Of a stretch of DNA of 64,000 nucleotides, positions 2,942 through 16,695 are shown piece by piece; position 1 is the stretch's first letter; every line of letters starts with the position of its first letter. The position numbers were made by a program, and so were the translations under genes. The DNA comes from Desulfovibrio sp. JY. Lineage in GTDB: Bacteria; Desulfobacterota; Desulfovibrionia; Desulfovibrionales; Desulfovibrionaceae. Location: NCBI GenBank assembly GCA_021730285.1, contig CP082962.1, positions 4,597,501 to 4,661,500 on the forward strand. The letters are read 5' to 3'. The notes beneath the pieces are model-generated. The model searched no databases, had not been told where the DNA came from, and saw only the letters and a list, made by a program, of their open reading frames with translations.

Positions 2942-5326
2942 ATGGACAGGGAACACGAAACCGGCGACGCCGGACAGGCCCGAAAGCGACAGCCCGGCAA
3001 GGGCGTCGGCGCGACGCTTCGGCGTTTCGCGGGCAGCGCCGCCCGGGTCTTCCTGCAGATCCGCTGCTCGCTTATCACCAAGCTGGCCATCATCTCCGGC
3101 GTGGCCCTCATGTTCTTTTTCTTTCTGTGGTCCCACCTCAACATCGGGGCCATGGAAAGGCTGTCCATGGAAAATACCGTCTCGGACATCAACCGCCTGG
3201 GCACCACCATCATCCTGGGGCTGCACGACTCCATGCTGACCTACGCCCCGGACGCCACCCAGGAGATCGTGCGCAACATCGGCTCCCAGACGGCGATCAA
3301 ATCCATCCGCATCTACAACAAGCGCGGGGAGATCAAGTATTCCAAGGACCCGGCGGAAATCGGCACCGACACCGACATCAAGCAGGAAGCCTGCTATGTC
3401 TGCCACCGCAAGGACCCGCCGCTTTTCGACGTCGGCATCAAGGCGCGCACCCGCTTTTTCACCGACGCCCAGGACCAGAAGTGCATCGGCATCATCTTTC
3501 CCATCGTCAACGACCCGTCCTGCTCGGGCGATCCCTGCCACGTCCATCCGCCGGGCAAAAAGATTCTCGGCCTGCTGGACATGGCGGTGTCGCTGGCCGG
3601 CTCGGAAATGACGCTTTCGCGCTTCACCCGCATCAACTTCCTCATGGCCCTGGCCATTGCGGCGGCGCTGTTCTTCATCCTCTTTTTGTGCATGCACCTG
3701 CTGGTCAACGCGCCGGTGCGCAAGATGATGCGGGCCACCCGGACCATTGCCGCGGGCGGCGATTTCACCGGCGTGGACCTGCGCCAGTGCGACGAGATGG
3801 GGGAACTCGGCCGGGCGATCACCACCATGGGCCGCGAGGTCCTGGCCAAGCAGGCCGAACTGGCCCGGCAGATGAAGCGCTACCAGGACCTTTTCGAGCA
3901 CGTACCCTGCGTCATCACCGTCCAGGACAAGGACCTGCGGCTGGTCAGCTACAACCAGTTTTTCGCCGGCGAGTTCCACGCCAGCCCCGGCCAGTACTGC
4001 TACAAGGCCTACAAGGGCCTCGACGCGCCCTGCCCGGGCTGCCCGGTCATGCGCACCTTCGAGGATGGGCTGCCCCACGCCACCGAGGAGATCACCCTGG
4101 ACAAGGACGGCAATCCCCGCTCCTTTTTCGTCAGCACCGCCCCCATGCCCGACGCCGCCGGCAACATCGACACGGTCATGGAAATGAGCCTCGACATCAC
4201 GGCCAGCAAGTACCTGGAGGCCGAACTCGAACGCTCGCGCAAGAAGTACCTGGCGATTTTCAGCTGCATTCCCACCGCCCTTTTCGTGCTGGACCGCGAG
4301 GACCTCACCATCCTCGAATGCAACGCCACGGCCGAAGAGGTCTACGGCTACACCCAGGCGGAACTTATCGGCCAGAATTTCCTGGACCTCTTTTACAACC
4401 GCGACCGCCGCGACCACGAGCGCAGCATCCGGGAACGCCACGCCATCGACCGGGCCCGCCACTGCAAAAAATCCGGGGCGATCATGTACGTCTCCATCCG
4501 CGTCTCCACCACAACCTTCCCGGACAGCCAGGTCTATCTGGTCTCGGCCACGGACATTACCCGGCGCCTCGAAACCGAGCAGCAGCTCATCCAGGCGAGC
4601 AAGATGGCGACCCTCGGCGAAATGGCCACCAGCGTGGCCCACGAGCTGAACCAGCCCATGACCGTCATCCAGACCATCGCCGAGTATCTCATGCGCAAGA
4701 CGCGACGCGGGGAAGCCGTTTCGCCAGAGCTTTTCCAGGAGATGGCCGAGGGCATCGGCAAGCACATCGCCCGGGCCACCCGGATCATCACCCACATGCG
4801 CGAGTTCGGCCGCAAATCCGACCTCACCGTCGGGCCGGTGGACCTCGGCGAGGTGCTCCTGCACACCATGGAGCTCTTCAACCAGCAGCTCAAGGTCCGC
4901 AACATCGAGGTGGCGACCGACGTCACCCCGGGCCTGCCCCCGGTCTCGGCCGATGCCGGCCGGCTGGAACAGGTGTTCATGAACCTGCTTTTAAATGCCC
5001 GCGACGCCATCGAGGAGCGGGGGCCGGCCGCTGGCGACAAGGCGGAAAAGCGCATCACCCTGCGCGTGTACCGGGACGGGGACCAGGTGGCCGCCGCCAT
5101 CGCCGACACCGGCCCCGGCATTGCCCCGGACATCCAGGACAAGATCTTCGAGCCCTTTTTCACCACCAAGCCCGTGGGCAAGGGGACGGGGCTCGGCCTT
5201 TCCATCAGTTACGGCATCATCAAGGATTACGGGGGCACCATCGAAATGGCCTCGGAACCGGGTCAGGGAGCCCGGTGCATCGTCCGGCTGCCGATCCGCA
5301 AGCCGGATACGCGACAGACGGCGTAA
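2942..5326 (+). CDS. Membrane sensor histidine kinase with CxxCH periplasmic domain, HAMP and two PAS domains
   Basis: 794-residue sensor kinase. A transmembrane segment near residues 43-64 and another near 231-254 enclose a periplasmic domain with a haem-type motif C151-Y-V-C154-H155 and a second Cys pair C194-x4-C199-H200. HAMP, then PAS 1 (cysteine-rich, CPGCP) and PAS 2, precede HisKA (H567 in VAHELNQP) and HATPase_c (N-box NLLLNARDAI, DTGPGIA, GTGLGLSI). The periplasmic motif suggests covalent haem and hence redox or gas sensing; the ligand is inferred, not shown. It lies 17 bp after the TunR-like gene and 158 bp before a single-domain response regulator, its likely partner. ATG 2942 begins just after the preceding stop. 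Confidence 0.85.
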   Translation: MDREHETGDAGQARKRQPGKGVGATLRRFAGSAARVFLQIRCSLITKLAIISGVALMFFFFLWSHLNIGAMERLSMENTVSDINRLGTTIILGLHDSMLTYAPDATQEIVRNIGSQTAIKSIRIYNKRGEIKYSKDPAEIGTDTDIKQEACYVCHRKDPPLFDVGIKARTRFFTDAQDQKCIGIIFPIVNDPSCSGDPCHVHPPGKKILGLLDMAVSLAGSEMTLSRFTRINFLMALAIAAALFFILFLCMHLLVNAPVRKMMRATRTIAAGGDFTGVDLRQCDEMGELGRAITTMGREVLAKQAELARQMKRYQDLFEHVPCVITVQDKDLRLVSYNQFFAGEFHASPGQYCYKAYKGLDAPCPGCPVMRTFEDGLPHATEEITLDKDGNPRSFFVSTAPMPDAAGNIDTVMEMSLDITASKYLEAELERSRKKYLAIFSCIPTALFVLDREDLTILECNATAEEVYGYTQAELIGQNFLDLFYNRDRRDHERSIRERHAIDRARHCKKSGAIMYVSIRVSTTTFPDSQVYLVSATDITRRLETEQQLIQASKMATLGEMATSVAHELNQPMTVIQTIAEYLMRKTRRGEAVSPELFQEMAEGIGKHIARATRIITHMREFGRKSDLTVGPVDLGEVLLHTMELFNQQLKVRNIEVATDVTPGLPPVSADAGRLEQVFMNLLLNARDAIEERGPAAGDKAEKRITLRVYRDGDQVAAAIADTGPGIAPDIQDKIFEPFFTTKPVGKGTGLGLSISYGIIKDYGGTIEMASEPGQGARCIVRLPIRKPDTRQTA

Positions 5327-5484: not shown

Positions 5485-5841
5485 ATGGCCAAGAAAATCA
5501 TGGTAGTGGATGACGATCCGCAGATCGTCTCCTATCTCGTCACGTTGCTTGGAGACAACGGCTATGAAACCTGCAGCGCTTCGGACGGCGACGCCGCCAT
5601 GGACGTGCTGGAACGCGAGAAGCCCGACTGCCTCACCCTGGACCTGGAGATGCCCCACGAGTGGGGGCCCCGGTTCTACCGCAAGTTCTCCCAGAAAGAG
5701 GAATTCAAGAACCTGCCCGTGGTGGTGATAAGCGGGCTGACCGGCCATGACATGGCCATCCGCAAGGCCGTGGCCGCCATCCACAAGCCCTTCGAACCCG
5801 AAGCCGTGCTGACGGCCGTGAAAAAGGCCTGCGGCGACTGA
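5485..5841 (+). CDS. Single-domain response regulator (CheY-like receiver)
   Basis: 118-residue stand-alone receiver with no output domain. It shows the acidic pair D9-D10, the phospho-acceptor D53 (LTLDLEMP), the conserved Ser/Thr region (VVVISG) and the lysine in HKPF. GTGAGGAG lies about 7 bases ahead of ATG 5485. It follows the haem-motif kinase and is probably its phosphorylation partner; lacking an effector domain, it would act by protein contact or as a phosphate relay. The target is unknown. Confidence 0.88.
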   Translation: MAKKIMVVDDDPQIVSYLVTLLGDNGYETCSASDGDAAMDVLEREKPDCLTLDLEMPHEWGPRFYRKFSQKEEFKNLPVVVISGLTGHDMAIRKAVAAIHKPFEPEAVLTAVKKACGD

Positions 5842-7063: not shown

Positions 7064-7097
7064 ACCAAAAGAAACGGGCGGTCCGAAAGGACCGCCC
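7064..7097 (-). terminator. Rho-independent terminator for the transporter/small-protein operon
   Basis: Perfect 9-bp stem GGGCGGTCC / GGACCGCCC with a GAAA loop; on the minus strand it is followed by GTTTCTTTT. It lies about 27 bp after the stop of the 57-residue gene. Confidence 0.85.
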
Positions 7098-7123
7098 GCC
7101 ATGAATCGGAGAGAACCTCGCGC

Positions 7124-7297
7124 CTAGCCGTGCGCGCCGGGAAAAAACTCGGCGCTCACGAAGTACAGCACGAAGAGCAGGACCACGCCCAGACTGATGC
7201 TCCAGGCGATCAGCTTCTTTTCGATGGGCAGAAGCGGTTCCCATTCCATCTGGGAAAGCTCTTCGGAAAAGCTCGCGTCTTTGACTTCAGGCTCCAT
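7124..7297 (-). CDS. 57-residue single-pass membrane protein, transporter partner
   Basis: Small protein beginning MEPEVKDASF, with an acidic N-terminal half (about residues 1-30), one hydrophobic segment (LIAWSISLGVVLLFVLYFV, about 30-48) and a short tail ending FFPGAHG. AAGGAGG lies 7 bases before ATG 7297, an excellent ribosome site. It starts 30 bp after the YeiH-family transporter stop and is followed by a strong terminator, so the two form an operon. Family unknown to me; by position it may be an accessory or stabilising subunit of the transporter. Confidence 0.8.
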   Translation of the reverse strand: MEPEVKDASFSEELSQMEWEPLLPIEKKLIAWSISLGVVLLFVLYFVSAEFFPGAHG

Positions 7298-7327
7298 GCA
7301 TGCCTCCTTGCTTGTGTCGGGTGTGGA

Positions 7328-8767
7328 TCAGGACGCCAGAGGCGGCTTGACTCCGTGGAAGAAGAGCCACGAGATGAAAAGGCCGATCCAGATGATGAAG
7401 CCGAAAAGGCTCACAATGTAGACCAGCGCCAGCCTGCCGATACCCTCGTCCCACAGCTTCTTGAAGTTGGACACCACACCGATGGTGAAAAACGTCAGTA
7501 CGAAGAAGATGGCCCGGAAAGGACCGGTGTCGCCGATGGCCGTCTTGCCCATCTTGAGCAGGTCGCCGCCCTTGGCGCACAAAAGCAACATGATGAGGAA
7601 GGTGATGACGTAACCGAGCACGAAGCGCGGGAAACGGTCGAGGATCGCGCCGAGCTTCATGCGCTCCCCGGGCTTGCATTCGATCATGGTGCACCAGATG
7701 GCGGCCAGGACGAAGGCCCACACGCCGATGAACACGTCGATGAAGATCTTGATGGTGGTGGCCGCCATGGTGATCCAGCCCGGCTGGTAGTTCACCCCGT
7801 TCACGGCCATGGCCTGGGCGCGAACGAGCGCGTCGGTGATGACGCCCGAGGCGATGGCGCCGCCGTCGGACTTGACGGCCAGGCCCATCCAGGCGCCGGC
7901 CACCATGGGCTCGTTGTACATCCAGTGCTGGGCCACGAAAGGCAGGATCAACATTTCCACGCAGGTGAATACCACGACCAGCGAGGAAACCATGATGGGG
8001 ACGATGGGCCGGGCGCGGATGGCGCCGCCGGTGGCGATGGCGGCGGACACGCCGCAGATCGAGATGCCGGAGGCGAGCGGCGCGGCCCACTCACGGCTGA
8101 ACTTGAAGTATTTCCGGGAGATGTAATAGACCAGGGCCCAGTAGATGAGGTAGGCCTCGACGATGGCGCAAAGGCCTCGGAAGATGACCGCCGAAGCCAG
8201 ACCCAGGGCGTCGACCGACTTGACGCCGAGCTCCGCGCCCAGGATGACGATGGCGATCTTGACGAACATCTCGGGCTTGAGGGCAGGCTTCAGCTTCTCG
8301 GCCAGCCCCGGCATGAAGTTGCCGATGAAGATGCCGACCAGAAGCGCCACGATAAAGCCCGCCTCGCCGGTCAGCCCCATGGCCCATTTGAGGTTGTACT
8401 TCGCCAGCTGGTTGGGCGTGGCCGCGACGACGGCATAGTGCCCGATGGCGAAGCAGAAAAAGCCGATGAAAAAGACCAGCGTGAAGCTGACCATGAAGCG
8501 TTTGGCGTCACCGCCGAGCGCCCGGATGCCGAAAGCCAGCATCACCGTGACGAAAATCCAGGTCAAAATCAGCGACAGCACCCCGGACATGCCCTTGTAG
8601 GCGCCCGTGGCCGCCGAGAACATCTGGCCCGGCTCCATCCACACGTTGGACTTGACGGCCCAGCCCAGCGGATCGACGCCGCCGAAGTTGAAAAGCGACA
8701 AGCCAAATAGGACAAGCCCCAGGATCAGGGCCAGCTTGTCTTCCGTAAGCCATTTTTTTTCCGCCAT
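7328..8767 (-). CDS. YeiH-family putative sulfate exporter / integral membrane transporter
   Basis: 479-residue inner-membrane protein with about 12 hydrophobic segments, of the family called putative sulfate exporter (PF03601, YeiH/Cons_hypoth698). Recognisable stretches are GIFIGNFMPGLAEKLKPALKPEMFVKIAIVILGAELG and GISICGVSAAIATGGAI, a conserved Gly-rich helix pair. The substrate is not established for this family. The longer reading frame upstream is ignored because AGGAGG lies 6 bases ahead of ATG 8767 (MAEKKWL). A sigma-54 promoter match lies about 270 bp upstream, and the divergent operon encodes a haem-motif kinase and a sigma-54 activator, which probably control it. Confidence 0.85.
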   Translation of the reverse strand: MAEKKWLTEDKLALILGLVLFGLSLFNFGGVDPLGWAVKSNVWMEPGQMFSAATGAYKGMSGVLSLILTWIFVTVMLAFGIRALGGDAKRFMVSFTLVFFIGFFCFAIGHYAVVAATPNQLAKYNLKWAMGLTGEAGFIVALLVGIFIGNFMPGLAEKLKPALKPEMFVKIAIVILGAELGVKSVDALGLASAVIFRGLCAIVEAYLIYWALVYYISRKYFKFSREWAAPLASGISICGVSAAIATGGAIRARPIVPIMVSSLVVVFTCVEMLILPFVAQHWMYNEPMVAGAWMGLAVKSDGGAIASGVITDALVRAQAMAVNGVNYQPGWITMAATTIKIFIDVFIGVWAFVLAAIWCTMIECKPGERMKLGAILDRFPRFVLGYVITFLIMLLLCAKGGDLLKMGKTAIGDTGPFRAIFFVLTFFTIGVVSNFKKLWDEGIGRLALVYIVSLFGFIIWIGLFISWLFFHGVKPPLAS

Positions 8768-9034
8768 AACTCCCTCCTCTTGCATTGACGATGACGCAAC
8801 GCGACGCGCAACCGACCGCGATAAGGCCATCCCGTGGCATCCCTCCCGGATACCGTCCGGGTGGCCGACCTCGCCGCGCCGATCGCTCCCGCAAGCCGGC
8901 GGACATCCGGCGGCCCGCGATTGCTTCGTCCTCCCCTGCCGTCCCCGGGCGAATCCGCCGCCGAAAGCGTCTCCCAAACGCCCTGTGGCAAACATCACGC
9001 CGGACCGGGTCCGAGAGACCCGTCAGTCGCCTTA

Positions 9035-9051
9035 AGCAAGTCCGGGACCAA
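9035..9051 (-). promoter_or_regulatory. Candidate sigma-54 promoter for the YeiH transporter
   Basis: On the minus strand, TGGTCC-CGGAC-TTGCTT matches the -24/-12 consensus TGGCAC-N5-TTGCW, with the invariant GG and GC 10 bases apart. Transcription would begin near 9024, leaving a leader of about 255 nt before the transporter. Confidence 0.55.
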
Positions 9052-9073
9052 TTCCTTTTCCATTGGCAACATT

Positions 9074-9085
9074 TTGTATTTACAA
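9074..9085. promoter_or_regulatory. 12-bp perfect palindrome TTGTATTTACAA
   Basis: An inverted repeat TTGTA-TT-TACAA in an A/T-rich patch, about 25 bp upstream of the sigma-54 promoter match. It could be part of an upstream activating site or bind a separate regulator. Confidence 0.3.
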
Positions 9086-9110
9086 GATTTTTAAAACCTG
9101 CTCCAATCAA

Positions 9111-9132
9111 GGTGCCAACTCCGGTTAGCACC
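9111..9132. promoter_or_regulatory. Candidate enhancer (UAS): 9-4-9 inverted repeat
   Basis: GGTGCCAAC-tccg-GTTAGCACC matches in 8 of 9 arm positions. It lies 60-80 bp upstream of the sigma-54 promoter match and 67 bp before the kinase start, where an NtrC-type dimer site would be expected. Confidence 0.5.
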
Positions 9133-9198
9133 CCGTAGCCGGGCGGTTGCATTGCCTTTTTCCCCCAGCCGCCCCAAAAGAGGATCAAGGGGGATCTC

Positions 9199-11667
9199 AT
9201 GGCCAAGCAGCACCCCAAAACCATTAAACATCGCTTCGTGGTCGGCCTTTCCGTCATCATGGCCGTGCTCGGCATGTTCTTTGCCGTGGTCATTTCCATG
9301 AACCTGCGCAACCAGCTCGTCACCGACACCGAGCACAAGGCCTCGCTGGTGCTCTCCCAGGCCGAGGCGGTCCAGACCTACATCCGCCACGTCCTGCGGC
9401 CGTCCATGTACGAGCTTTTGCCCCCGGACGGATTCCTGCTCGAGGCCATGTCCACCTCGTTCGTCACGCGCCGGGTGATGAGCGACCTAAACGCCCAGGG
9501 CGACCAGTTCCGCTACCGCCGGGTGGCGGTGCGGGCGCGAAACCCCGATTACGAGGCCGACGCCTTCGAGCGGGCGCTCATCGACCGGTTCGCCAAGGAC
9601 CCGGAGCTGACACGGGTGGAGGAAATCACCGAACGCGACGGGGAAGAGGTGTTCGTGGCCGCCCGGCCGGTGCGCCTGGAGGCCTCGTGCCTGCACTGCC
9701 ACGGCGACCCGGCCGTCGCGCCCAAGGCGCTCATCGACCGCTACGGGGACAAGCGGGGCTTCTGGCGACACGAGAACGAGCTTGTGGGTGTGGACGCCGT
9801 GACCATGCCCGTGGCCGGGGCGTTGGGGCAGATCAAGGGGGCGACCTTCAGCTTCGTGGCCCTTTTCGCCCTGGGGCTCGGCGTCTTTTACCTGACGGTG
9901 CAGCTTTTCTTCGACCGGCTGGTGGTGGTCAACCTGCGCCGGGTCACGGACGTGATGCGCCGCTATTTCCCCAAGGAAGTCGGCGAGGAGCCGAGCGAGC
10001 CTCCGGGCGAAGGCGAGATCGAGGAAATCTACGCCGGCATCGAGGCCTTTGCCTCGCGGCTCAAGGAGGCGCGCGGCAAGATCGAGGACCACGCCCAGGA
10101 CCTGGAGCGCACGGTCACGGCCAGAACGAAGGAACTCGCCCACGAGGCCGACGAGCGCCGCTCCGACGTGGCGCTTTTCGTGGAGCTTTTAAGCATCCTC
10201 AACATGTCCCAGACCAGGGCCGAGCTTTTGACCGGCGCCCTGGCCCGCATCGCCGAACGCTTCGGCGCCCGGGCCGTGGCCTACGAGTGCGAATTTTCCG
10301 GCGGCGGGTCGGTTTCCTGGCCGCCCGGGGAGACCCCGCCGCCGCCCCCTGCCGCGTGGCGCAAGCTGGTGGCCGAGGACCGCCTGCATCTGGCCGGCGA
10401 TGCGGCCTTTATCCCGGTGCGCACGACAGACGTCAGCCGGGGACTTTTGCGCCTCTACTTTCCGCCCGACGGTCCCGGCCCGGACAGCGAGGCCGCCGAA
10501 CTCTACCGGGCCATCGGCCAGCAACTCGGCATCGCCCTGGAAAACCTCGACGCCATCAATTCGCTTTTGGGCCAAAACGCCCTGCTCGGCTCCATCTTCG
10601 ACGGCATCTCCGATCCGCTGGCCCTGGTCGACAGTTCCTTCGGCATCATCCTGGCCAACGAACCGGCCCGGGAACTGGCCAGGGCGCTGCAACAGGAGCT
10701 TGCCGGCGCGGTCGCCCTGCCGCCCGTGGCCGTCCCCGGAGCCCCCCTGCGCCTGCCGCCGGAAGTCTTCGGCCCCACTCCGGGCGACGACGCGGTCGGC
10801 GCCGCCGCCATGGTGCGCATCGACCCGACCATTTCCACCATCGACCTGCCCGACGGCCGCTCGTTCGCCGTCACCCGCTATCCCCTGGCCTCCCCCAACG
10901 GCCAGGACGGGCGCATGGTGGTCTACGCCCGCGAAAACACGGCTGAACGGCGCATGCGCGAACAGATGCGCCAGACCGAAAAGCTCGTGGCCGTGGGCAA
11001 GCTGGCCGCCGGGCTGGCCCACGAGATCAACAACCCCCTTGGCGTCATCGCCTGCTATGCCGAGCTGTTGCGCCAAAACGAGACCGATCCCCAGGCCCTG
11101 GACGACCTGGCCGTCATCGAACGCCACGCCGTCATGGCCAAGAAAGTCCTGCGCGACCTGCTCGATTTCGCCCGGCCAAGACAGGCCTCCACCGGCCCCT
11201 GCGACATCGCCGCGCTCTTAAAAAGCCTCTCGCGCCTGTTCGAAGTCCAGGCCCAAGCCCGAAAAGTGCGCCTCGAAACCAGCATCGCCGCCAACCTGCC
11301 CGTGGCCAGGGCCGATGCCTCGGCCTTGGAACAGGTGCTGTCCAACCTGCTTTTAAACGCCCTGGACGCGGTCTCCCCGGAAACGGGCGAGGTCCGCATC
11401 GCCGCCCGTCCCGGCCCGGACGACGACAGCGTCAGCATCCTGGTCTCGGACAACGGCCCGGGCATCCCCCCGGAAGACCTGACGCGCATCTTCGACCCGT
11501 TTTTCACCACCAAGGAGGCCGGACGCGGCTCGGGCCTGGGATTGGCCGTGGTGTTCGGCCTGCTGCGCGACATGGGCGGCCGGGTGGAAGTGGAAAACGC
11601 CGACGGCGCGGTCTTCACCGTCATCCTGCCGGCCTGCGGGCCCGCCTGTCAGGAGGAAGCCTCATGA
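9199..11667 (+). CDS. Membrane sensor kinase with DUF3365-type haem domain, GAF/PAS and HisKA
   Basis: 822-residue sensor kinase. Transmembrane segments near residues 13-35 and 214-238 flank a periplasmic DUF3365 (Tll0287-like) domain that ends with C164-L-H-C167-H168. A HAMP/coiled-coil linker (about 245-325), a GAF-like region (about 330-450) and a PAS-like region follow, then HisKA (H608 in LAHEINNP) and HATPase_c (NLLLNALDAV, DNGPGIP, GSGLGLAV). DUF3365 domains bind c-type haem and are proposed redox or gas sensors. The stop overlaps the next gene's start (ATGA), so kinase and regulator are translationally coupled. It is divergent from the YeiH transporter operon. Confidence 0.88.
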   Translation: MAKQHPKTIKHRFVVGLSVIMAVLGMFFAVVISMNLRNQLVTDTEHKASLVLSQAEAVQTYIRHVLRPSMYELLPPDGFLLEAMSTSFVTRRVMSDLNAQGDQFRYRRVAVRARNPDYEADAFERALIDRFAKDPELTRVEEITERDGEEVFVAARPVRLEASCLHCHGDPAVAPKALIDRYGDKRGFWRHENELVGVDAVTMPVAGALGQIKGATFSFVALFALGLGVFYLTVQLFFDRLVVVNLRRVTDVMRRYFPKEVGEEPSEPPGEGEIEEIYAGIEAFASRLKEARGKIEDHAQDLERTVTARTKELAHEADERRSDVALFVELLSILNMSQTRAELLTGALARIAERFGARAVAYECEFSGGGSVSWPPGETPPPPPAAWRKLVAEDRLHLAGDAAFIPVRTTDVSRGLLRLYFPPDGPGPDSEAAELYRAIGQQLGIALENLDAINSLLGQNALLGSIFDGISDPLALVDSSFGIILANEPARELARALQQELAGAVALPPVAVPGAPLRLPPEVFGPTPGDDAVGAAAMVRIDPTISTIDLPDGRSFAVTRYPLASPNGQDGRMVVYARENTAERRMREQMRQTEKLVAVGKLAAGLAHEINNPLGVIACYAELLRQNETDPQALDDLAVIERHAVMAKKVLRDLLDFARPRQASTGPCDIAALLKSLSRLFEVQAQARKVRLETSIAANLPVARADASALEQVLSNLLLNALDAVSPETGEVRIAARPGPDDDSVSILVSDNGPGIPPEDLTRIFDPFFTTKEAGRGSGLGLAVVFGLLRDMGGRVEVENADGAVFTVILPACGPACQEEAS

Positions 11668-13067
11668 ACGGCACACCCCGTGTGCTCATCGTCGACGACC
11701 AGCCGGATTTCGCCAAGGGGCTCGTGCGGCTTCTGGCCAAGAAACTGCCGGGCGCATCCCTTGGCTGCGTGCTCTCGGGCGAGGAAGCCCTGGCCGACCT
11801 CGCCCGCGCCCCCTGCGCCGTGCTGGTGACCGACCTGCGCATGCCCGGCATCTCAGGCCTGGACCTGCTGGGGGCCGCCCTTGAGCGCGACGCCAACCTG
11901 GGCGTGGTCCTTCTCACCGCCCACGGCGACATCGACACCGCCGTGGCCGCGCTCAAGGCTGGCGCCTACGATTTCCTGACCAAACCCGTGGACTCCGAAC
12001 ACCTGGCCCGGGTCATCGCCAAGGGCCTGGAACGGGCGGAACTGCTGGCCGAAAACATTCGGCTGCGGGCGGTGGTCGCGGCCTGTGGCGGCGAGACCGG
12101 CCTGCTCGGCCAGTCGCCAGCCATGGAGCAGGTCAAGGAAGCCATCGCCGCCGTGGCCGGCTCGGACTACACCGTGCTCATCCGGGGCGAATCCGGCACC
12201 GGCAAGGAACTGGCCGCCCGGGCCGTGCACAGCCTGTCGCGGCGCGCCTCGGGACCGTTTCTCTCGGTCAACTGCCCGGCCATCCCGGACCAACTCCTCG
12301 AAAGCGAACTCTTCGGTCACGTGCGCGGCGCGTTCACCGGCGCCGAACGCGACCGGCGCGGGCTTTTCACCTCCGCCAACGGCGGCGTCATCGTGCTCGA
12401 CGAAATCGGCGACATCCCCATGAGCGTGCAGACCAAACTCCTGCGCGTGCTCCAGGAACGCGAGGTGCGCCCCGTCGGCTCCAACAAGTCCGTTCCCGTG
12501 GACGTGCGCATCCTGGCCTCCACCAACCAGGACCTGGAAAGCAAAATCGCCGACAAGACCTTCCGCGAAGACCTCTACTACCGCTTGAACGTTTTGACCG
12601 TGCGCCTGCCGCCCCTGCGCGAGCGCCGCGAGGACATCCCGCTTCTGGCCACCGCCTTTCTGGCCCGGGCCTGCCGTGAAACCGGCATAGGCGAAAAGGG
12701 ATTCTCCGCCGAAGGCCTTGCCGCCCTGTCCGGCCGGGAATGGCCCGGCAACGTGCGCGAACTGCTCAACTTCGTGCGCCGGCTCACCGTCTTCTGCCGG
12801 GGCGACGTCATCGGTCCCGCCGCCATCGCCGCCGCCGACCCTGGCCAGGGCGACCCGGCCGATGCCGATAACGACGACGACACCCCCACGCCCTACCTCG
12901 AAGCCAAGGCCCGGGTCGTCGACGCCTTCACCCGGCGCTATGTCGAACGGCTGCTGGGCCAGACCCACGGCAACGTCTCCGAAGCGGCAAGGGTTTCGGG
13001 ACTGGAACGCGTGTCATTGCAGAAGATATTGCGCCGGTTGGGCATCGCGGCCGACGGGTATCGGTAG
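11664..13067 (+). CDS. NtrC-family sigma-54-dependent response regulator
   Basis: 467 residues: receiver (about 1-120; acidic pair D11/D12, phospho-acceptor D57 in VTDLRMPG), AAA+ ATPase (Walker A G175-ESGTGKE, sigma-54 contact loop GAFTGA at 222-227, Walker B VIVLDEIGD) and a C-terminal Fis-type helix-turn-helix (SEAARVSGLERVSLQKILRRLGI). All elements of a functional enhancer-binding protein are present. It overlaps the haem-motif kinase by ATGA and so is its cognate regulator. The only sigma-54 promoter match seen nearby faces the YeiH transporter, the most likely target. Confidence 0.93.
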   Translation: MNGTPRVLIVDDQPDFAKGLVRLLAKKLPGASLGCVLSGEEALADLARAPCAVLVTDLRMPGISGLDLLGAALERDANLGVVLLTAHGDIDTAVAALKAGAYDFLTKPVDSEHLARVIAKGLERAELLAENIRLRAVVAACGGETGLLGQSPAMEQVKEAIAAVAGSDYTVLIRGESGTGKELAARAVHSLSRRASGPFLSVNCPAIPDQLLESELFGHVRGAFTGAERDRRGLFTSANGGVIVLDEIGDIPMSVQTKLLRVLQEREVRPVGSNKSVPVDVRILASTNQDLESKIADKTFREDLYYRLNVLTVRLPPLRERREDIPLLATAFLARACRETGIGEKGFSAEGLAALSGREWPGNVRELLNFVRRLTVFCRGDVIGPAAIAAADPGQGDPADADNDDDTPTPYLEAKARVVDAFTRRYVERLLGQTHGNVSEAARVSGLERVSLQKILRRLGIAADGYR

Positions 13068-13559: not shown

Positions 13560-14174
13560 CTATCGCTTCACCGCCACGGCCGTCAGCACCCCCGCGCCGA
13601 TGAGCGACCCACCGCCGACGCGGCGCAGCGTGCCGACGAAGCGGGGATCGCGGATGCGGCCGCCGATGGTGCCGGCGAGCAGCGCGTAGGCGGTGGTGTT
13701 GACCGCGCCAAGCAGGACGAAGGTCGTGCCGAGAAACGCCAGTTGCGGCAGGGCCGGGGCCTGCGGGCTCACGAACTGGGGCAGGAAGGCCACGAAGAAG
13801 AGGATGGTCTTGGGATTGAGCACGGTGACCGTGAAGGCATGGACGAATTTGCGCCCGGCCGGGCATGGAGCCGGGGACATGGCGGCATCGTTGCCCGAGC
13901 GCAGCATACCGATGCCGAGCCAGACGAGATAGACCGCGCCGACGACCTTGACCACGGTGAAGGCGGCGGCCGAGGCGGAGAGCAGCGCGCCGAGTCCGGC
14001 CAGGGAGCCGGCGCAGGCCACGGCGTCGCCAAGGCACACGCCGGTCACCAGGGACCAGACGGATTTGCGGCCCTCGGCCAGACCGTAGCCGATGACCATG
14101 AGCACGGTGGGACCGGGAAAAACGAGCAGAACGGAGGCCGCCACGATAAACGCCAGATACAATGGTAATGTCAT
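13560..14174 (-). CDS. LysE/RhtB-family amino-acid exporter
   Basis: 204-residue inner-membrane protein with about six hydrophobic segments. The N-terminal signature VFPGPTVLMVIGYGLAEGRKSVWSLVTGVCLGDAV and the later LNPKTILFFVAFLPQFV are typical of LysE/RhtB translocators, which export amino acids or homoserine lactones; the substrate cannot be told. ATG 14174 (MTLPLYL) fits the family N-terminus, although the ribosome site (GTGAGGG) is close to the start. It appears monocistronic, with a hairpin downstream. Confidence 0.85.
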   Translation of the reverse strand: MTLPLYLAFIVAASVLLVFPGPTVLMVIGYGLAEGRKSVWSLVTGVCLGDAVACAGSLAGLGALLSASAAAFTVVKVVGAVYLVWLGIGMLRSGNDAAMSPAPCPAGRKFVHAFTVTVLNPKTILFFVAFLPQFVSPQAPALPQLAFLGTTFVLLGAVNTTAYALLAGTIGGRIRDPRFVGTLRRVGGGSLIGAGVLTAVAVKR

Positions 14175-14293: not shown

Positions 14294-15088
14294 TCAAGCC
14301 TGTCCCGGAGAGTCGTCTCCGGGTGCTCCTTCCAGCTCCGATTCCACGAATGCGGCCGGATCCGCGCAAAAGTCGCGAAGCAATTTGAAATGTTCGGTCT
14401 GCTCCACGCGCACGGGTTCGAGGCCGGACTTGGAGAGGAGCAGGAGTCGGGCGGAGGGATAGGCCATAAGCAACGGAGAATGTGTCGCCATGATCACCTG
14501 ACACCGCCCCATCCGCTCCATACGACGCAGCAACCTCAGAAACAGGACTTGCCGGGATGGAGAAAGCGCCGATTCCGGTTCGTCAAAAATGAAGATGCCT
14601 TGGCGGTCGCACCGTTCGTCAAAAAAACGGAGGAAACCTTCCCCATGCGAATGGGAGAGAAAATCCGGCGGCACCCCGAAGGCCTCGATCGCGGCCCGAT
14701 CAAGATAGCGGGCGACCGTAAAGAAGCTCTCGGCCTTAAAAAACCAACCCGTGGTGATCTTCGGCAGCCAGCTCGCCCGAAGCGCGTCGGCAAGGCGTCC
14801 GCCGCTCACTTCGAGCGCCCCGGAATGGTCCACCGGCATGTAGCCCTTGCCGCCGCCGGCATCGTCGTACCCCGCCAGGGCCGCGATACCCTCGAGGAGC
14901 GTTGATTTACCGGTGCCGTTCTCTCCCACGACGATCGTGATCGCCTTGTCGAAGGACAACTCGAATCCGGGCACAAAAAGCGGCAGACAAAATGGATACG
15001 CTTTCGGGTCGGGGACCGAAGACGTGTCCAGCCAGATCCGCTTGAGGTAGGGCGCCGGCAGGTTGATGGGACGGTATCTCCGACTCAT
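14294..15088 (-). CDS. Solitary AAA/ABC-type ATPase (COG3910-like)
   Basis: 264-residue cytoplasmic ATPase with Walker A GENGTGKST near residue 50, the segment LSHSHGEGFLRFF in the signature region, Walker B GIFIFDEPESALSPSRQ and a switch histidine (MATHSPLLM). There is no membrane domain, and no nuclease partner is adjacent. Related stand-alone ATPases occur widely with no settled role; some belong to OLD- or PARIS-like defence pairs, but nothing here shows that. The start at 15088 (MSRRYRPINLP) is chosen because it precedes the conserved core; an in-frame extension to 15307 runs through A/T-rich DNA without a clear ribosome site. Confidence 0.72.
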   Translation of the reverse strand: MSRRYRPINLPAPYLKRIWLDTSSVPDPKAYPFCLPLFVPGFELSFDKAITIVVGENGTGKSTLLEGIAALAGYDDAGGGKGYMPVDHSGALEVSGGRLADALRASWLPKITTGWFFKAESFFTVARYLDRAAIEAFGVPPDFLSHSHGEGFLRFFDERCDRQGIFIFDEPESALSPSRQVLFLRLLRRMERMGRCQVIMATHSPLLMAYPSARLLLLSKSGLEPVRVEQTEHFKLLRDFCADPAAFVESELEGAPGDDSPGQA

Positions 15089-15268
15089 TTCACACTTTTC
15101 CCTATACTTGATGCCGGCGGCCATCCTGCGCCGGTGCGCCGGGTGGCGGTCTCCCCGCCGGATCTTCTTAAAACAGAAAATCCAATATACTCGCAACCCC
15201 AAAAAAACATGCGCCCATCCGTAATTGGCAGGTGCTTCGCAAGGCAACCAACTTTTCTGTAATTTCGA

Positions 15269-15297
15269 TTGCATCGAATAGGAACTTATCTTATGCT
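15269..15297 (+). promoter_or_regulatory. Candidate sigma-70 promoter for the two-gene operon at 15451
   Basis: TTGCAT and TATGCT are separated by 17 bp in an A/T-rich 360-bp gap (15089-15450), about 150 bp before the first start codon. No other gene is visible in that gap. Confidence 0.35.
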
Positions 15298-15450
15298 TTA
15301 CTCCCAAGCTTCATAAGATATCGAATACATGCCAATGTAACATATTACTTTTAAAAATAAAACATCACGCACAGTGGACAACTCCGATACGGCAGAAAGA
15401 CGAGGCGCATACCGACATGTATTGACCTTTAAACTTTGAAGGAGGCCAAT

Positions 15451-15693: not shown

Positions 15694-16695
15694 ATGAGAC
15701 AGACTATTTCCACTGTAGCTGACGTCAAGGAAATGATCGAAAACAAACGCACGCTTCTCCTCGCCGGCGATGAAAATGCGTTACATCAACTCCCCAAGGG
15801 GAACTGGGTTGCGGGCACTATCCCCTATTTCATATCGAGCGACCAGGGCGGCATGGTCAGCCAGGAAATGATCAGCGTTACGGACATCACGGACATCGTC
15901 ACTTCGTTCAAAATAACCGCCTATGATCAAAACAGCCTAGCCAGGGTCTACTCAGAAGGCCCCAAACACGGATTTAGCTTCATCGTCATTCCGGCCTCCA
16001 GCAAGACCCATCTGGCGTTTGCCTTAAACGCTCCGAACTACAAGGACTTCGGCGTACGGCCGCTCATCGGTTGGATCGCCGGCGTCCACCTCTCGGAGCT
16101 GGGCAAGAAAACGCCCAAGGTCGTCAACGGCATCACGGGAGAGGTGCTGGAAGAAGGGGCCTTGGTGCTGCAGGCGGAACTACCGCAAGGCAAGGTGGCG
16201 GAGATCGGCATCGTCAATCTTTTCGAGCAGGGAGGCGGCGACGTCCTCACCTTCACCTCCGACGACTTTGCCGCCAAGGACGTCATCGTCAACGGGGAAA
16301 AGCAGAATTTCGCCGAGTACATCGTCAAGAACAAACTCGACACCAAGCTGCCGCTTGTGGCCGACTACTACGGGGCCCTGGTCAACATCAGTTTCCAGGG
16401 CGTCGACGAAGCGGAAGGGCTGGTAAAATTCTATGCGCCGGTGTTTTCCGGAATCCGGTACAAGCACGCCAAGCCCGTGCTCGATTACGTCAAACAGTTC
16501 AACGAACGCCTGCGCAATGAAGGCTCCATCGAGTCCCACCGCATAGCCTTCTCGTGCAACTGCATTCTCAATTATCTTTATTCCGAATTGGAAGGAAAGA
16601 AGACGGAGCCCTTCACCGGCCCCGTCACCTTCGGCGAAATCGCCTACCAGTTGCTCAACCAGACTCTTGTCTACCTCGAGGTCCTGGACGTTTAA
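15694..16695 (+). CDS. Conserved-looking hypothetical protein, 333 residues
   Basis: Soluble protein with no signal peptide or membrane segment (starts MRQTISTVADVKEMIENKRT). The N-terminal third has WVAGTIPYFISSDQGGMVSQ; the middle has GVRPLIGWIAGVHLSEL; the C-terminal half has a cysteine pair (SCNCILNYLYSELEG). The WxxGTIPYF-type opening recalls FIST-like sensory proteins, but I cannot assign the family. GGAGGGC precedes ATG 15694. It follows the 77-residue gene by 9 bp and ends at a 12-bp-stem terminator. The role is unknown. Confidence 0.8.
   Translation: MRQTISTVADVKEMIENKRTLLLAGDENALHQLPKGNWVAGTIPYFISSDQGGMVSQEMISVTDITDIVTSFKITAYDQNSLARVYSEGPKHGFSFIVIPASSKTHLAFALNAPNYKDFGVRPLIGWIAGVHLSELGKKTPKVVNGITGEVLEEGALVLQAELPQGKVAEIGIVNLFEQGGGDVLTFTSDDFAAKDVIVNGEKQNFAEYIVKNKLDTKLPLVADYYGALVNISFQGVDEAEGLVKFYAPVFSGIRYKHAKPVLDYVKQFNERLRNEGSIESHRIAFSCNCILNYLYSELEGKKTEPFTGPVTFGEIAYQLLNQTLVYLEVLDV

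Follow-up and report, generated by a model that had tools for sequence, protein, structure and literature searches.

A probable haem-sensing two-component switch for a YeiH-family transporter in Desulfovibrio sp. JY

A histidine kinase and a sigma-54-dependent regulator encoded side by side in Desulfovibrio sp. JY very probably switch on the exporter gene that lies next to them. The genes were found in a stretch of 64,000 nucleotides, referred to here as the window, and we interpret them as a dedicated two-component haem-sensing switch for one exporter, the most likely cargo being sulfite or a related sulfur oxyanion (probability about 0.62). The wiring, comprising kinase, sigma-54 activator, palindrome, promoter and the transporter with its small protein, is well supported; phosphotransfer, the sign of control, the signal and the substrate are what we infer. 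In the mechanism proposed, a c-haem Cache domain in the periplasm would sense a small haem ligand or the redox state of the haem, and this signal would alter the kinase or phosphatase activity of the protein and thereby control how far the NtrC-type regulator is phosphorylated. In its turn, the regulator would bind a palindrome at 9111–9132, about 60 bp upstream of the promoter, and open sigma-54 polymerase at 9036–9051, with expression of the transporter and its 57-aa partner as the outcome. The presumed cargo, sulfite or a related sulfur oxyanion, would leave the cell whenever it accumulates in this sulfate reducer.

The locus consists of two transcription units diverging from a 431-bp gap, with the transporter unit on the minus strand and the kinase-regulator unit on the plus strand. 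Every part listed by the sequence-only reading of the window was found in its place: a DUF3365 CxxCH kinase and an intact NtrC-type activator with GAFTGA, whose ORFs overlap by 4 bp, diverge from a YeiH-family transporter and a 57-residue membrane protein as had been described, and the sigma-54 match facing the transporter and the 9-4-9 palindrome upstream of it are both present and kept in relatives. The genome is a single 4.69-Mb contig, to which the window belongs. It contains one PF03601 gene, one PF11845 gene and one match to the sigma-54 domain PF04552, and the exact degenerate core of the palindrome occurs in it once, in the transporter-kinase gap. As there is one gene of each of the families PF03601 and PF11845 and one exact core, the circuit looks private. 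A multi-operon regulon in this genome was considered and rejected on the basis of the single exact site; five sites with two mismatches were viewed as ORF layouts only.

The transporter (7328–8767, minus strand, 479 aa) was identified by its Pfam match and by full-length relatives, the closest named one coming from Solidesulfovibrio alcoholivorans (95% identity), from which the host was judged to be a sulfate reducer of the Solidesulfovibrio type. It scores 79.1 bits against PF03601 (gathering cut-off 24.5), which places it in the family. Its match to the YeiH subfamily model TIGR00698 is a distant one, at 39.2 bits and below the cut-off of 232.6; judged by these scores, it is a PF03601 family member and not YeiH proper. 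Structural models of PSE transporters comprise 9- and 11-helix forms (PMC8396727). The gene for the small protein (7124–7297, minus strand), called from its ORF, a hydrophobic segment and a profile, starts 30 bp downstream of the transporter. Its 57-aa product is a single-helix membrane protein, with one hydrophobic segment, and a conserved partner of this transporter type; scanned against Pfam and NCBIfam at E 0.001, it matched no family. Within the loci fetched for transporter, kinase or site, a profile of the small protein matched 63 ORFs, each adjoining a YeiH gene, and the conserved positions before the helix are E-P-L/W and K-L. In loci L086–L094, which carry transporter families other than that of the window, the small protein precedes the transporter, and these calls are weaker because they score only 25–41 bits. 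A pattern scan, the only evidence used here, places a terminator-like hairpin (7073–7100, minus strand; 12 pairs, 9 of them G-C) after the 57-aa gene.

The histidine kinase (9199–11667, plus strand), identified by Pfam, motifs and a structural model, combines PF11845 (127.9 bits) with HisKA and HATPase_c domains and carries CLHCH at residue 164 and AHEINN at residue 607. Its Tll0287/DUF3365 (c-haem Cache) sensor, predicted to be periplasmic, sits between two hydrophobic segments. An AF2 model of the sensor (mean pLDDT 89.8) matches Tll0287 in the PDB (5b82, E 4.7e-9), this being the only match with E up to 0.001, and the domain is predicted to have a Tll0287-like fold. The family to which it belongs carries haem c, with an invariant CxxCH (PMC12889525). 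Among the 105 sensors that we compared, CxxCH is present in all, which together with PF11845 is the sequence signature of sCache_heme sensors; L66, R67, P68, M84 and S85 hardly ever vary, and no second Cys is conserved in at least 85% of them. The kinase resembles the sCache_heme sensors of PMC12889525 in its Cache-type fold, its invariant CxxCH and its fused signalling module. The regulator (11664–13067, plus strand), assigned by Pfam and a motif check, has a receiver domain, a Sigma54_activat domain (236 bits) with GAFTGA at residue 222, and a Walker A motif. Its Fis-type HTH scores 20.4, just below the Pfam cut-off of 22, and the protein was counted as an NtrC-type sigma-54 activator with its receiver, its AAA+ domain with GAFTGA and this slightly subthreshold HTH.

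The haem sensor also admits a reading in which the wiring is identical and the signal is nitric oxide, or NO derived from nitrite: NO-type stress would impair sulfite reduction, and the switch would export the sulfite that piles up. In PMC12889525, an axial Cys is present in the stand-alone protein that was tested, whose behaviour looks redox-like; the signalling-type member tested lacks the axial Cys and binds NO tightly. The sensors compared here have no second conserved Cys, and by sequence only the kinase therefore groups with the NO-binding signalling member. Against this stand that a single signalling member was tested in that work, that the locus showed no nitrosative-stress gene and that the step from NO to sulfite build-up would itself have to be assumed. 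We regard NO as a possible signal, if on the unlikely side.

The kind of circuit is already known, and its layout has a precedent in D. vulgaris Hildenborough. There, DVU0946 and DVU0539, two paralogous regulators, recognise a common binding motif; their targets, mapped in vitro, are DVU0943-0946, DVU0542-0545 and DVU2133-2132, and in E. coli they switch on the DVU0542 promoter (PMC3333781). Since in vitro mapping already ties these two regulators to operons with a PSE transporter, we do not consider the kind of circuit to be new. The same paper reports that orthologues of both regulators and the palindromic motif are conserved in all environmental Desulfovibrio, and that the pair is autoregulated; a sigma-54 regulome also lists PSE transporters (PMC4641369). 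As in the window, DVU0943-0946 and DVU0540-0539/DVU0542-0545 have a sigma-54 regulator and a kinase beside a PSE operon, DVU0540-0539 is divergent from the operon of DVU0543, and both have a small or single-helix protein; this likeness is drawn from the layout and the regulators. DVU0943 is probably of the window's transporter type, judging from the four-gene order in genus g9. DVU0543 is named a PSE transporter, and its cluster shows molybdate phenotypes in which loss of the transporter is beneficial and loss of the kinase harmful (PMC10102598), a pattern that would be compatible with the loss of an intermediate through an exporter. It speaks against the proposed switch that the DVU0540 kinase seemed to act in opposition to its own regulator (PMC3333781, PMC10102598). 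In the open-licence papers searched, no report of a pairing of a haem kinase with YeiH was found.

The sequence-only reading had left the substrate of the transporter as unknown; the literature on the family narrows it to sulfite, without settling it. Salmonella owes its sulfite resistance mainly to YeiH (PMC12880088), and the Hyphomicrobium YeiH transcript rises 526-fold with thiosulfate (PMC11582611); it is because of these two results that sulfite is preferred as cargo. The window's transporter is only remotely similar to the YeiH model proper, so the assignment is carried over from distant relatives. As in the YeiE-YeiH systems of Salmonella and Hyphomicrobium (PMC12880088, PMC12423496, PMC11582611), a dedicated regulator adjoins a PF03601-type transporter, which in those systems is induced by sulfur oxyanion conditions. 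Sensing differs: YeiE is a cytoplasmic LysR-type regulator that senses sulfite, whereas the window has a membrane c-haem kinase with a sigma-54 activator. Alternatively, the same wiring could serve another cargo, such as an organic acid or other anion tied to lactate or energy metabolism. The distant relation to YeiH favours this, and so does the binding of DVU0539 to the lactate operon DVU3025-3033, from which its authors suggested a link to lactate (PMC3333781); the D. vulgaris regulators have been interpreted as part of a lactate network (PMC3333781, PMC10102598). Unlike DVU0539 with its further targets, the window's circuit has one exact site in its genome, which means that no lactate operon shares the site, and for those PF03601 members with data the link is to sulfite or sulfonate sulfur (PMC12880088, PMC11582611). 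A cargo of this other kind is, in our judgement, unlikely.

The wiring itself was traced from the gap between the two units. The palindrome at 9111–9132, the likely UAS of the regulator, reads GGTGCCAAC-TCCG-GTTAGCACC, with 8 of 9 positions pairing, and contains the core TGCYAACN4GTTRGCA at 9113–9130. A general repeat search of the gap reported no inverted repeat, and the palindrome was verified by script instead. By the same script, it is the only 9-4-9 repeat in the gap to reach 8 pairs or more, but the 64 kb contain 18 of this quality, so the palindrome alone would prove little. A predicted sigma-54 -24/-12 promoter, TTGGTCCCGGACTTGC (9036–9051, minus strand), supported by its motif match and by conservation, faces the transporter at 62 bp from the palindrome, and transcription of the transporter would be expected to start at about 9020–9030. 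As the palindrome also precedes the kinase start, by about 70 bp, autoregulation of the kinase-regulator pair is plausible. A second palindrome in the gap, TTGTAAATACAA (9074–9085), was rejected as a binding site, being present only in the window and its closest relative, L038.

When five gaps from the same genus were aligned, TGGTCCCGGACTTGCTT was unchanged and the palindrome, TGCTAAC...AGTTGGCA, had small changes; versions of the palindrome and the sigma-54 site were both kept in further relatives beyond this alignment. Across 297 genomes of the order the exact core occurs 44 times, in 38 genomes, against 2 occurrences of a reversed control pattern. By hand count, 36 of these 44 sites have a kinase or YeiH gene nearby, one (in G212) is beside a sensor-like ORF and 7 are elsewhere; for the 30 exact sites within fetched loci, a script found a YeiH or sensor match at 1.5 kb or less in 24. 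The combination of a core (at most 3 mismatches) and, after it, a sigma-54 site (at most 1) is present in 57 of 131 upstream regions of YeiH-family genes and in 3 of 2620 shuffles, which preserve base composition and not dinucleotides; on this comparison, palindrome and promoter occur together above chance. Removal of near-identical upstream regions changed the number of site pairs from 58 to 55. Among these 57 regions, 38 have a spacing of 60–66 bp and most others one of 51–52, 82–85, 107 or 154–157 bp. A phasing of roughly 10.5 bp is suggestive only, because the spacing classes were named post hoc and are carried by related genomes.

Both sites track with the kinase. Taking as linked those YeiH genes with a kinase within 6 kb, a core with up to 2 mismatches is found upstream of 51 of 97 linked genes, 3 of 34 unlinked genes and 3 of 485 shuffles of the same composition-preserving kind; for a sigma-54 site with up to 1 mismatch the corresponding counts are 69 of 97, 5 of 34 and 15 of 485. 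In a block of 21 unlinked loci (L065–L085), the core has at least 4 mismatches in all, and the sigma-54 site with up to 1 mismatch is absent from 20. Twelve of these loci belong to genus g3, which has no genome among the 136 with a kinase match, and three others, from G116, G084 and G005, have a kinase elsewhere in the same genome. In L059, L061 and L062, from the same genus and with the kinase elsewhere, a weak core (3 mismatches) is followed about 62 bp on by a sigma-54-like site. G106 has only two exact sites, one upstream of the kinase and the other upstream of a YeiH gene 1.2 Mb away; in G124, kinase and transporter are more than 1 kb apart, with an identical site at each.

The kinase search gave matches in 136 of the 297 genomes of the order. 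We hand-picked 70 regions around them, mainly those in which no YeiH neighbour was yet known, and counted 69, one (L226) having no sensor; some genomes are present twice in the samples (e.g., L006 and L042). A YeiH-profile gene lies within 3 kb of the kinase in 60 of these 69 Desulfovibrionales loci and in none of the other 9, where a Pfam scan of some neighbours revealed no common alternative target. A core with up to 1 mismatch is present somewhere in 30 of the 60 regions with a YeiH gene. Outside the order, where a flank of only 1.5 kb was available, a strong YeiH match was found at 11 of 28 kinase loci, and the seven of these 11 that were checked are PF03601. The profile behind these counts had gone through three rounds of iteration on the fetched loci, and PF03601 was confirmed by Pfam in 10 of 10 genes near kinases and in 7 of 10 in the sample from outside the order, the three unconfirmed being the weakest, cut-off fragments. 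Four YeiH subfamilies fill the slot beside the kinase. On a tree of 103 kinases (9 labelled 'none'), the partner label changes 18 times, compared with a mean of 59 in shuffles, and on the window's branch three kinds of partner occur: the window's own, a short one and a longer one. In L152–L156, from the same genus as the window, the kinase adjoins the short YeiH type, and the window-type transporter is elsewhere or was not found; set beside L059, L061 and L062, it looks as if the partner transporter had been exchanged.

Three counts speak against the proposed switch, namely the 46 of 97 linked genes without a core of up to 2 mismatches, the 9 of 69 kinases without YeiH and the 7 of 44 exact sites near neither gene. 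That the two-component pair merely adjoins the transporter, with no regulatory link, is nonetheless very improbable: 18 palindromes of similar quality in 64 kb and a non-conserved one in the same gap would favour it, but the pairing extends across the order and beyond, the palindrome and promoter keep a near-fixed spacing, the palindrome is missing from the 21 unlinked copies and sites are shared in trans. The pairing and the palindrome, whose loss in relatives had been set as a test of the sequence-only reading, are both kept, and the test did not refute that reading. Its complete switch is well supported as to the wiring, by comparative genomics and by the published in vitro mapping in D. 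vulgaris; the redox or gas signal is a part that we only infer.

Sulfite is a toxic intermediate of sulfate respiration. Bacterial sulfite resistance has been called poorly understood (PMC12880088). We tentatively suggest that in Desulfobacterota the periplasmic c-haem Cache kinase may be a standing sensor of sulfite stress, through direct ligation of sulfite to the haem or via NO, that controls YeiH-family sulfite efflux. The system would be a two-component equivalent of YeiE-YeiH in which the kinase stays put as one exporter subfamily gives way to another, and the small membrane protein would serve as the exporter's partner. The locus looks like a one-target circuit, with one sensor, one exact site and one exporter, so that signal and substrate could each be tested with one or two mutants. 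The sCache_heme family would also gain a concrete and widely conserved target: a term search of the available text of the preprint (PMC12889525) found no target named and no mention of YeiH or a transporter, and the window's sensor is tied to one transporter family.

Several further features were observed at related loci and around the circuit. L212 (G186:C30, 4200–11000) has three consecutive YeiH-family ORFs, together with four exact cores and an intervening Usp gene, and this triple adjoins a kinase-regulator pair. Usp genes appear near some loci in a clustering of flanking ORFs that is crowded with antisense ORFs. In L218 (G212:C30, 5600–9400), an exact core lies directly upstream of an ORF with a weaker, 174-bit match to the sensor profile, at a distance from any YeiH gene of that stretch. 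Just upstream of the circuit in the window, another membrane kinase (2999–5326, plus strand; HAMP, PAS, HisKA and HATPase_c domains, and CYVCH within the N-terminal part) is followed by a stand-alone receiver protein (5485–5841, plus strand). An ATPase ORF (14297–15307, minus strand) with AAA_21/AAA_15 matches neighbours a LysE-type translocator (13560–14099), and the ORF at 15694–16695 (plus strand) matches DUF6976, a family of unknown function, over its full length with 457 bits.
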